Of a DNA stretch of 49,035 bases, positions 30,510-35,777 are shown in pieces. A model generated the notes under the pieces. That model was not told the DNA's origin and did no database searches. It worked only from the letters and a program-made list of their open reading frames with translations. The DNA is from Coriobacteriia bacterium (GTDB taxonomy: Bacteria; Actinomycetota; Coriobacteriia; Anaerosomatales; PALSA-660), in the NCBI GenBank assembly GCA_023252055.1, contig JAHEXP010000006.1, positions 1 to 49,035 of the forward strand. Direction: 5' to 3'. A program made the translations under genes and the position numbers. How positions within the stretch are numbered: the stretch's first letter is position 1; each line of letters starts with the position of its first letter.

Positions 30510-30926
30510 CTATATGTAGTAGATCGCTTCCCGGCTCGCGTCGAGGCGGTCCTGACGGGACGCGAGGTCCGCCAAAGTGACGGAAGCGAGCAGGCCGTCG
30601 AGCGAACGGGCGACGTCCGCCCACATGTCGGAAACGACGGTGCCACTCGTGCGCGGGACGTCCATGGCCGAACCCTCGAGCGCCTGGACGACATCCGCCA
30701 CCGAGACCGAGCCTGCGGGCCGAGCCAGCGTGCAGCCTCCGCCAGCGCCCCGGCGGCAATCGAGCAGACCCCCTTGGGCCAGCGCGGTGAACTGCTGCTC
30801 GAGGAACCGGCGCGGCAGCGACAGGGAGTCCGCGAGCTCGCCGGCGGCCACAGCCGTGCCGGGGGGGCGCTGCGCCAGCGCCACGAGCCCGCGAAGCGCG
30901 TAGTCCAGCCGCTGGGAGACCCTCAT
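30510..30926 (-). CDS. Rrf2-family transcriptional regulator
   Basis: MRVSQRLDYALRGLVALAQRPPG...LADSLSLPRRFLEQQFTALAQGGLLDCRRGAGGGCTLARP; Rrf2 winged helix. Confidence 0.9.
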   Translation of the reverse strand: MRVSQRLDYALRGLVALAQRPPGTAVAAGELADSLSLPRRFLEQQFTALAQGGLLDCRRGAGGGCTLARPAGSVSVADVVQALEGSAMDVPRTSGTVVSDMWADVARSLDGLLASVTLADLASRQDRLDASREAIYYI

Positions 30927-31882
30927 TGCCCGTAGCCTTCCCACAGCGGCGTCGAGAGGTAGCGCTCGCCGGTGGACGGCGCGACGGTCACGATCGCCTT
31001 GCCGGCCGCCTCGGGACGCGCGGCCAGCCGGAGTGCGGCCACAAGGTTCGCGCCGGACGAGATGCCGACGAAGATGCCCTCCTCAGCGGCCAGGCGCCGC
31101 GCTGCCGCGATGGCGGTGGGCGCGTCGACGCGCTCGACGCCGTCGAGTACGGAGAGATCGAGCGTCTTCGGGATGAAGTTCGCACCGATGCCCTGGATCC
31201 CGTGGGGCCCCGGGGTGAGGGGCTCACCCGCCAAAGCCTGGCCGATGATCGGAGACTCGGCTGGCTCGACGGCGATGGCGAGCGCGCCGGGCCGGATCTC
31301 TTTCAGGAATCGGCCGCCGCCGCTGATCGTCCCGCCGGTCCCCACTCCCGCGACGAACGCGAAGAGCTGCTCGTCGCCCAGCGCGGCATGGATCTCCGGG
31401 CCCGTCGTCGCGAAGTGGACCGCCGGGTTCGCCGGGTTGTCGAACTGCCCGGGCACAAAGGCGTCCGGGATCGTCGCCGCAATCTCGTCGGCCTTCGCGA
31501 CCGCGCCCTTCATGCCGAGCGCCCTGTCGGTCAGCACGAGCTCCGCCCCGAACGCCGCGAGAAGCTTGCGACGCTCCACCGACATCGACTCGGGCATCGT
31601 CAGGATGACCCGGTACCCGCGCGTGGCGCCGACGAGCGCCAAGGCGATACCGGTGTTGCCGCTGGTGGGCTCGACGATCACCGACTTCCCGCGCGTGATG
31701 AGGCCACGCTGCTCGGCGTCGTCGATCATCGCCTTGCCGATGCGGTCCTTGACGGAGCCGCCCGGGTTGCGCGACTCGAGCTTGATGTAGATCCGGCCCG
31801 GCAGGCCCTCGCCAAGATGGTCGAGGCGGACGAGATGCGTGCCGCCGATGGTGTCGAGAACGTTCGGAATGGGTGTGCTCAT
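30923..31882 (-). CDS. cysK: Cysteine synthase (O-acetylserine sulfhydrylase)
   Basis: YIKLESRNPGGSVKDRIGKAMI, VEPTSGNTGIALALVGATRGYRVILTMPESMSVERR, GVGTGGTISGGGRFLK. Confidence 0.95.
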   Translation of the reverse strand: MSTPIPNVLDTIGGTHLVRLDHLGEGLPGRIYIKLESRNPGGSVKDRIGKAMIDDAEQRGLITRGKSVIVEPTSGNTGIALALVGATRGYRVILTMPESMSVERRKLLAAFGAELVLTDRALGMKGAVAKADEIAATIPDAFVPGQFDNPANPAVHFATTGPEIHAALGDEQLFAFVAGVGTGGTISGGGRFLKEIRPGALAIAVEPAESPIIGQALAGEPLTPGPHGIQGIGANFIPKTLDLSVLDGVERVDAPTAIAAARRLAAEEGIFVGISSGANLVAALRLAARPEAAGKAIVTVAPSTGERYLSTPLWEGYGQ

Positions 31883-32047
31883 GGGTGGACCTCCGTGGTG
31901 CCGCTTCGGGGCCGCGCACGCCGGCCATGGCAGGAGTCTACCCTCGCGTGGCACCGGATTCACGCACTATTAGCATGCGCTTCATGCGATTCGCAGTTGC
32001 ACGGTGCGATACGGTACGCTGCATCGGTCGGAAGAAGGGGTTGCAGC

Positions 32048-32390: not shown

Positions 32391-33056
32391 CTATCCCAGC
32401 GTCACGAACACCTCGCCGCCGCGAACGGCCACCGCGTACGTCTTCACGTCGGCGTTCGGGTGATCGGTCGTGCCGTCGCGCACGTCGTATCGCCAGCCGT
32501 GCCACGGACACATCAACGCGTAGCCGTCGAGGTAACCGTCCGCCAGCGGCGCGAAGGCGTGACGGCATACGTTCGACAGCGCGAAGAAGCGGCCGCCCAC
32601 ACGTGCGAGCGCAATGTCGCGCTTCCCGAGTTTCAGATGGCGGACCTCGCCGTCGCGCATGTCGCTCTCGGCCGCAACGCGAACGTCGACCGGGCCCTCG
32701 GGTGCCTCGACGACGCCGTGGAGGCTCGACCCGTCCTCGATGTCGGTGCGGATGAAGAGCCCGCACCAGCACTTCCGCATCGCTGCGAACTGCTCGACAT
32801 TGACCGCGATGCAGGGACACACGATCGCTGCATCCTGCTTCGGATCACCGGTGCGGAGGCGACACGGGCAGTAGATATCGCCGGTCTCGTCGAGGATCCC
32901 GATCTCCGCCTCGAGCGTCTCCGTGACGAACGCTTCATCGGTGTTGAACTTGTAGCCGAGCCGCTCGACGTACGGCGTCATGAACGTCTTCAGGTCGCCG
33001 ATCGTCACGTCCGGCCCGAAGCGGCGGCGGACCGGTTCCGGTTCGCCCACGGTCAC
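32391..33056 (-). CDS. Ferredoxin:thioredoxin reductase catalytic-like domain fused to a Rieske [2Fe-2S] domain
   Basis: YCPCR-x-CPCI-x-CWCGLF FTR-like Cys motifs; C-terminal CRHAFAPLADGYLDGYALMCPWHGWRYD (CxH-x16-CxxH) Rieske motif; GTG start overlapping the glutaredoxin stop. Confidence 0.85.
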   Translation of the reverse strand: MTVGEPEPVRRRFGPDVTIGDLKTFMTPYVERLGYKFNTDEAFVTETLEAEIGILDETGDIYCPCRLRTGDPKQDAAIVCPCIAVNVEQFAAMRKCWCGLFIRTDIEDGSSLHGVVEAPEGPVDVRVAAESDMRDGEVRHLKLGKRDIALARVGGRFFALSNVCRHAFAPLADGYLDGYALMCPWHGWRYDVRDGTTDHPNADVKTYAVAVRGGEVFVTLG

Positions 33057-33301
33057 AGTCCAGCCAAACGGGAGATGCCCGCCTTGTCGAAGCCGACGAC
33101 GACGTCGTCTCCGGCGACGATGACCGGGAACGACGTACCGCCCGAGAGGCGCTTGACCTCTTCGATCGCGTCGGTGCGCTCCTGCCCGGTGAGCTTGTCG
33201 ACCTCGAGGACGTCGTAAGCCACGCCGCTATCGTCGAGGAACTTGCGCGCCTGGTGGCAGTACGGGCAGGTGGAGAGTGCGAACACCTTGATCGCTGGCA
33301 T
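33053..33301 (-). CDS. Glutaredoxin-like / NrdH-type redoxin
   Basis: MPAIKVFALSTCPYCHQARKFLDDSGVAYDVLEVD...GGTSFPVIVAGDDVVVGFDKAGI; CPYC active site. Confidence 0.9.
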   Translation of the reverse strand: MPAIKVFALSTCPYCHQARKFLDDSGVAYDVLEVDKLTGQERTDAIEEVKRLSGGTSFPVIVAGDDVVVGFDKAGISRLAGL

Positions 33302-34922: not shown

Positions 34923-35777
34923 ATGTGCCAGTTCTGCGTGCAGCACGGCGACGGCAAGGCGTGGTACCTCGAGGCGAGCACCTACGCATACGACCTCGAC
35001 AGCGACCTGAAGCGCCGTGACTACCTCGTCGACTTCGTCCAGGACTTCGGGAAGAACCGCGAGTTCGCGCTGACCAACCTGAAGCGTCTGGAGCGGTTGC
35101 CCGCCCCGCTGCGCGATCTTGGCCGCAGCATCGCCACCCGGAACATGAAGGTCTCGCACTTCGGCCAGCCGGTCCCCATCGAGGAGTGCGAGCAGATCTT
35201 CGACCTCGCCACATCCGTTGTGCGCATCCCCTGCCCATGCCGCTACGAGTCCGGCTCCAAGGACGAGGGCTACTGTCTCGCCATCACGACGAAGCCGATC
35301 GACCGCTATCTCGACGAAGCGTTCAAAGACTACGAGGTGGGACCGGACACGACGAAGTTCCAGCGGCTGACGAAAGCGGAGGCGCTCGCCCTGTTGCGGC
35401 GGGCCGAGGACGAAGGGCTCATGCACTCCGTGTGGACCTTCGTGACTCCGTTCGTCGGCGCGATCTGCAACTGCAGCCTCGAGGCGGGCTGCATGGCGAT
35501 GCGCATCACGGTGGAGCACGAGACGCCGATCATGTTCAAGGGCCACCACATCGCGCACGCGGACCTCGACGCGTGCACGGGGTGCGCCGAGTGTGTCGAA
35601 CGCTGCCCGTTCGAGGCGATCGCGATCGGTCCGGGCCACAAGCGGGCGATCGTCGATGCCGAGAAGTGCTACGGCTGCGGCGTGTGTCGCTCCGCTTGCG
35701 AATACGACGCGCTGGCCCTCCAGGACCGGCCGGCTCCCGCGCCCGGGATCCTCACCAGCGCACGCGCGACCGCCTGA
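34923..35777 (+). CDS. Cysteine-rich 2x[4Fe-4S] ferredoxin-domain protein of unknown function
   Basis: MCQFCVQHGDGKAWYLEA...; IPCPCRYESGSKDEGYC; ICNCSLEAGC; CTGCAECVERCP and CYGCGVCRSACEY. Confidence 0.8.
   Translation: MCQFCVQHGDGKAWYLEASTYAYDLDSDLKRRDYLVDFVQDFGKNREFALTNLKRLERLPAPLRDLGRSIATRNMKVSHFGQPVPIEECEQIFDLATSVVRIPCPCRYESGSKDEGYCLAITTKPIDRYLDEAFKDYEVGPDTTKFQRLTKAEALALLRRAEDEGLMHSVWTFVTPFVGAICNCSLEAGCMAMRITVEHETPIMFKGHHIAHADLDACTGCAECVERCPFEAIAIGPGHKRAIVDAEKCYGCGVCRSACEYDALALQDRPAPAPGILTSARATA

Follow-up and report, generated by a model that had tools for sequence, protein, structure and literature searches.

The catalytic chain of plant and cyanobacterial ferredoxin:thioredoxin reductase (FTR; 1DJ7 and 2PU9) carries its six cysteines as CPC-x16-CPC-x8-CHC, a pattern that the preliminary description of the locus studied here had quoted as canonical and that our alignment to both structures bore out. 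This chain acts with a separate variable subunit, has thioredoxin as its partner and lacks a Rieske domain. In FTR, the second cysteine of the first pair and the last cysteine are redox-active, and the other four hold a [4Fe-4S] cluster. The ferredoxin-dependent disulfide reductase (FDR) of Methanosarcina acetivorans (4TPU) has an FTR-type domain with CPC-x14-CPC, a last spacer of x12 and CYC, with an aromatic residue in the place of the histidine, and its chain ends in a second small iron electron-transfer domain, a rubredoxin (one iron, four cysteines). As Prakash and coworkers are said to have found in 2018, it reduces a glutaredoxin-like protein. The Desulfotalea psychrophila protein (7PWE) fuses an FDR domain, with the spacing CPC-x14-CPC-x12-CYC, to a glutaredoxin and has no Rieske domain. 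Rieske clusters have mainly been described in oxygenases and in the bc and b6f complexes of respiration or photosynthesis, and ring-hydroxylating dioxygenases are served by Rieske-type ferredoxins (e.g., CarAc, 1VCK) that act as stand-alone carriers.

We analyzed a window of 49,035 nucleotides (the whole stretch of DNA under study) from a member of the Coriobacteriia, where one gene joins an FTR-like catalytic domain to a Rieske domain. Since FTR, FDR with rubredoxin and FDR with glutaredoxin are already known, what is new is the Rieske partner. It is apparently unreported: the open-access literature, a scope outside which key subscription papers on FDR fall, held no Rieske partner of FTR, either fused or operonic.

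Domains and active site of the FTR-Rieske protein

The motifs CPC-x14-CPC-x13-CWC (C63-P-C65, x14, C80-P-C82, x13, C96-W97-C98) and CRH-x16-CPWH (C164-R-H166, x16, C183-P-W-H186) share one ORF, with coordinates, strand and residues as first described (Table 1). The profile search proposed at that time returned both domains in this protein, in one reading frame and far over the Pfam gathering cut-offs of 22 bits for FeThRed_B (PF02943) and 20.3 bits for Rieske (PF00355). The N-terminal part belongs to the FTR superfamily by its profile score and by six cysteines in the order CxC, CPC and CxC, and the C-terminal part has both the CxH-x15-17-CxxH ligands and the profile score of a Rieske domain.

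Table 1. Features of the FTR-Rieske locus, in positions of the window
Feature	Position	Strand	Evidence or remark
FTR-Rieske fusion gene	32391..33056	-	Single intact ORF, 221 aa/221 codons; GTG start at 33056, stop ends at 32391 (translation of the window)
FTR/FDR catalytic domain, aa 22-108	32733..32993	-	PF02943 (FeThRed_B), 62.9 bits
First CPC: C63 (putative cluster ligand), C65 (putative redox-active Cys)	32862..32870	-	Invariant, 19 sequences
Second CPC: C80, C82 (putative [4Fe-4S] ligands)	32811..32819	-	Invariant; roles by FTR homology
CWC: C96 (putative cluster ligand), W97, C98 (putative redox-active Cys)	32763..32771	-	
Rieske [2Fe-2S] domain, aa 125-207	32436..32684	-	PF00355, 70 bits
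Rieske box 1, C164-R-H166	32559..32567	-	Cys and His invariant
Rieske box 2, C183-P-W-H186	32499..32510	-	Invariant
Glutaredoxin, 82 aa, CPYC (putative substrate)	33053..33301	-	PF00462, 52 bits

The protein shares the catalytic domain family and the six cysteines of plant-type FTR, but its spacers are x14 and x13, and CWC stands where that type has CHC with the catalytic histidine. The position of this histidine, taken by tyrosine in FDR, is occupied by W97. The spacing is instead close to that of the FDR subtype (CPC-x14-CPC with an aromatic residue for the histidine), with a last spacer of x13 versus x12. Like M. acetivorans FDR, the protein carries a second small iron electron-transfer domain at the C terminus of the same chain; there is, however, no rubredoxin center, and a Rieske domain stands in its stead. 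Judged from these features, it would work like an FDR, yet outside the rubredoxin-FDR architecture. The altered cysteine spacing and the lost histidine had also been put forward as novel; the pattern itself is real, but x14 and an aromatic residue are ordinary in the FDR branch, which they mark. The x13 spacer and the tryptophan mark a sub-lineage within that branch, and CWC was identical in every fused and every operonic Rieske-linked FTR that we read.

By sequence, the best solved relatives of the FTR half were 7PWE and 4TPU (both CPC-x14-CPC-x12-CYC), entitled in the fold library "glutaredoxin/ferredoxin disulfide reductase fusion protein" (from Desulfotalea psychrophila) and "ferredoxin-dependent disulfide reductase from Methanosarcina acetivorans", respectively. 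When the FTR half was folded alone, these two and then plant-type FTR were the only credible fold matches (E = 0.003, 0.007 and 0.013), which are supportive only, given such modest E values and a domain pLDDT of 70. The full-length model (pTM of 0.64, pLDDT of about 50 in the cluster loop) predicted the domain interface poorly, and the 50 matches listed for it covered the Rieske half only. This half has the fold of Rieske-type ferredoxins, such as that of carbazole dioxygenase (E = 4e-8), and it shares fold and ligand spacing with the dioxygenase ferredoxins, which are stand-alone proteins, whereas the domain described here shares its chain with FTR. Its boxes, CRHAFA and CPWHGW, lack the extra disulfide-forming cysteines of bc1/b6f Rieske proteins. 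The domain is therefore not of the disulfide-bearing, high-potential bc1/b6f type, and a low-potential Rieske-type ferredoxin is to be expected.

We take C65 and C98 to correspond to Cys57 and Cys87 of spinach FTR. The redox-active pair would then be C65-C98, with C63, C80, C82 and C96 as predicted ligands of the [4Fe-4S] cluster. This assignment is independently supported by in-frame UGA codons in relatives, which fall only on these two positions: one FTR-Rieske relative (L065) has UGA in place of C65, and 10 FDR-rubredoxin genes have it in place of C98. In L065 (G010:C9, minus strand), the UGA gives CPU (reverse-complement position of about 1645), the upstream glutaredoxin is intact, and SelB is present in the genome. 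L065 is probably a selenoprotein form of FTR-Rieske, a nonsense mutation being possible. The FTRs of other Actinomycetota are mostly FDR-rubredoxin proteins (CYC), several of them with UGA for the last cysteine (CYU). The FDR-rubredoxin genes with UGA at this cysteine (CYU or CFU) are L085, L099, L100, L101, L103, L104, L106, L107, L112 and L113. Tandem rubredoxin domains, two per locus, were seen in three FDR-rubredoxin loci of Actinomycetota (L088, L111 and L112). The FtrB family double-selenoprotein (NCBIfam NF041072), an FTR-type family, matched only in part (36 bits versus a cut-off of 160), as did the UXX-star glutaredoxin-like family (47.5 bits versus 66). Neither has a Rieske domain, and the window protein has cysteine, not selenocysteine.

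Conservation in the order and association with glutaredoxin

When 85,488 species genomes were scanned, 18 other records gave a relative of 63 to 70% identity. All of them bear the names Coriobacteriia, Coriobacteriaceae or other Actinobacteria, and the remaining matches of the scan were Rieske-only. Reading of these 18 records showed the full-length architecture and the same spacings, at 62 to 68% identity. In the alignment of the 19 sequences, neither the six cysteines of the FTR half nor W97 nor any of the Rieske ligands varied. Within the order, the CPC-x14-CPC-x13-CWC pattern was present in all 49 loci, and 48 of them had the Rieske half in frame, the last one being cut by a contig end. 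PF02943 was found in 54 of the 61 relatives among the sampled genomes. Across the class, 59 genomes of the order had it, and outside the order there were only two weak matches. It was missing from some genomes of the order with a completeness of at least 90%, and FTR-Rieske is therefore not strictly essential. Some genomes of the order or phylum carry a second FTR type (CPC-x14-CPC-x12-CHC; L061, L063, L064, L066, L074 and L108), in which the FTR domain is followed by about 110 residues without a recognized domain.

In 48 of the 49 loci, the gene directly before the fusion encodes a glutaredoxin, so that the architecture first proposed, with an FTR-like domain and a full Rieske domain in one protein beside a glutaredoxin, holds across the order as well as by profile scores. 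The TGA stop of the window's glutaredoxin gene and the GTG start of the fusion overlap (GTGA). The product is a dithiol glutaredoxin by its PF00462 score and its CPxC site, and it falls below the NCBIfam cut-offs for NrdH, GRX3, YruB and UXX-star (best, YruB, with 50.1 versus 88.55 bits). Since 7PWE is a glutaredoxin-FDR fusion, glutaredoxin is a natural partner of the FDR class; in 7PWE the glutaredoxin is fused, whereas in the window it is encoded by a separate, overlapping gene. There is no other constant neighbor in the order: an ABC transporter cluster lies next to the fusion at some loci and a stomatin/slipin-like gene at others. Downstream, on the strand of the fusion, a gene for an Rrf2-family regulator (weakly CymR-like) overlaps a cysteine-synthase-like PALP gene (30510-31963, minus strand), a sulfur-metabolism neighborhood that is not conserved in most relatives. 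The window also encodes, at 34923-35777 on the plus strand, a protein of 284 aa that ends in a two-cluster ferredoxin domain and whose unassigned N-terminal half has CPC and CNC motifs.

In six of eight genomes of the order, among them a complete single-contig one, no Rieske domain was found apart from the fused one, so that in these genomes the domain does not serve an oxygenase or a bc complex. A leftover oxygenase ferredoxin is unlikely for the same reason. Thioredoxin reductase (TIGR01292) scored over its cut-off in seven of eight genomes of the order and was split into pieces in the eighth. With this NADPH-dependent enzyme also present, the fusion system is not the sole thiol reductase of the cell, and FTR-Rieske represents a second thiol route.

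Rieske-linked FTRs in Actinomycetota and archaea

A tree built from 102 FTR domains, short (91 columns) and unsure in its deeper branches, placed 57 Rieske-linked FTRs in one clade (SH-aLRT of 97), and the 24 fused ones were on one side of a branch with a support of 93. All 57 members of this CWC-x13 clade were Rieske-linked, being either fused or encoded in operons of the form Rieske (one to three genes)-glutaredoxin-FTR, with or without a final Rieske or nitroreductase gene. The Rieske link is thus a property of the whole clade. The nearest CWC-x13 group outside it has one member with an N-terminal rubredoxin-like domain, and the FDR-rubredoxin genes that we read fell in a different group. 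One CWC-x13 FTR (L117:6341-6796, minus strand) has an N-terminal domain of the rubrerythrin rubredoxin-like type, just below the cut-off of RUBY_RBDX, a mirror image of the FDR-rubredoxin layout. Among the loci read, no Rieske gene lay within about 1.5 kb of FTRs of the CHC, CYC or CFC types. In the phylum sample around a locus labeled "Proteobacteria" (L028), 4 of 192 genomes had an FTR, none of them with a Rieske gene nearby.

The operonic form was found in another actinomycetote and in over 30 archaea. The former, from another class (L115), encodes in succession a Rieske protein (107 aa), a CPWC glutaredoxin (84 aa), a stand-alone CWC-x13 FTR (111 aa) and a second Rieske protein (111 aa), in genes that overlap or stand a base or two apart. 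In the archaeal phylum holding Halobacteriales, a profile of the subtype gave 150 to 180 bits for 36 FTR genes versus at most 82 bits for all other FTRs, and each of the 30 archaeal loci read had, on the same strand and upstream of or around the FTR, a glutaredoxin gene and one to three Rieske genes. One archaeal operon (L205) has two consecutive glutaredoxin genes upstream of the FTR. Ligand motifs are intact in the Rieske genes of the archaeal and actinobacterial operons, and the archaeal upstream ones mostly carry the extra box cysteines, unlike the fused domain. In about 20 archaeal operons (L188-L212), the FTR is directly followed by a nitroreductase-family flavoprotein gene (PF00881, 127.9 bits), and all of these operons lack a downstream Rieske gene. 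The fusion in the window has no nitroreductase gene as a neighbor. An attractive possibility is that the fused domain was derived from a downstream operonic Rieske gene, a descent that the Rieske tree merely did not reject (p-AU of 0.53). The archaea with the operon probably include a cultured methanogen, Methanocella paludicola, and the main text of its genome paper (PMC3146512) does not mention Rieske, thioredoxin or glutaredoxin.

Proposed electron route and alternative readings

Two domains with conserved ligands are thus present in one chain next to an overlapping glutaredoxin gene, and their FTR clade is constantly linked to Rieske and glutaredoxin genes in two domains of life. On balance, we think it probable that the protein is an FDR-class reductase of the upstream-encoded glutaredoxin and that its Rieske [2Fe-2S] domain is a built-in electron-transfer module. 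Single electrons would pass from ferredoxin, or from a flavoprotein like the nitroreductase of the archaeal operons, to the Rieske cluster and from there to the [4Fe-4S] cluster, with C63, C80, C82 and C96 as its ligands. Two successive electrons would open the C65-C98 disulfide, through an intermediate in which one thiol is held at the cluster, as in FTR and FDR. C65 would then attack the CPYC disulfide of the glutaredoxin, which would reduce target proteins in host cells that probably lack glutathione. The Rieske domain would take here the electron-entry place that rubredoxin has in M. acetivorans FDR. That it serves as the enzyme's own electron donor or acceptor had been suggested from the fusion; the unfused operons of archaea and of another actinomycetote, together with the absence of a second Rieske protein from most of the order's genomes, strengthened this idea, and we infer both the donor and the direction of electron flow.

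Rieske-type ferredoxins have potentials of about -150 mV and FTR disulfides of about -320 mV. Transfer from the Rieske cluster to the disulfide would therefore be uphill, which counts against the preferred explanation, a puzzle common to the rubredoxin of FDR. The likeness to the dioxygenase chain (flavoprotein, Rieske ferredoxin, terminal enzyme) suggests a flavoprotein as donor for the Rieske cluster. A more far-reaching proposal, which we regard as tentative, is that these proteins form a separate class of disulfide reductases in anaerobic archaea and bacteria, in which flavoprotein-fed Rieske proteins, and not ferredoxin, would supply the FTR-type [4Fe-4S] site. NAD(P)H or F420H2 would enter through a nitroreductase-like subunit, and a dioxygenase-like Rieske chain might have been rebuilt for thiol reduction and, in this order, fused into one protein; we hold this with the same reserve.

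The same potentials raise the reverse direction, in which the FTR-like site would oxidize dithiols, such as those of reduced glutaredoxin, and the Rieske domain would carry the electrons to an acceptor, so that the protein would form disulfides or act as a redox sensor. The expected Rieske potential lies above that of a dithiol, so this flow would be downhill, and the archaeal nitroreductase could equally be the electron acceptor. All characterized relatives (FTR and FDR) are, however, reductases, 7PWE joins the same catalytic domain to glutaredoxin, and the hosts, apparently anaerobes, would have little need for disulfide formation in the cytosol, all of which makes oxidation improbable. We also think it unlikely that the Rieske domain stands outside the catalytic path, where it would dock a donor, stabilize the fold or sense oxygen or redox state while ferredoxin feeds the FTR domain directly as in plants. 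Plant and cyanobacterial FTR does work without such a domain and the poorly predicted interface would fit, but the four Rieske ligands are invariant and the archaeal and actinobacterial operons retain one to three Rieske genes with their motifs intact. A role in iron-sulfur handling, with the glutaredoxin carrying a [2Fe-2S] cluster that the FTR-Rieske protein receives or repairs, seems very improbable: some glutaredoxins do carry such clusters and Rieske proteins are [2Fe-2S] proteins, but the site here is dithiol (CPYC or CPWC), versus the monothiol CGFS typical of cluster carriers, and both redox-active FTR cysteines are kept, with UGA exactly at their positions in relatives. Lastly, the preliminary description had named a frameshift or assembly error, or a missing FeThRed_B match, as grounds for giving up the fusion. 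The match is strong, and that a frameshift, a chimeric assembly or an annotation error joined two genes is practically inconceivable, since independently assembled genomes, one of them in a single contig, show the identical architecture at 48 of 49 loci, and we found no point in its favor.

As a reductase of glutaredoxin, the FTR-Rieske protein looks like part of a real electron route for thiol reduction in anaerobes. Fusion and operons, in both domains of life, tie Rieske proteins to cytosolic disulfide reduction in apparent anaerobes. This would give a function to the otherwise orphan Rieske ferredoxins of methanogens and would add Rieske to free ferredoxin and rubredoxin as a further electron-entry design in the FTR/FDR family. 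It would also allow a direct test of how a modest-potential carrier of single electrons can drive the two-electron reduction of a disulfide.
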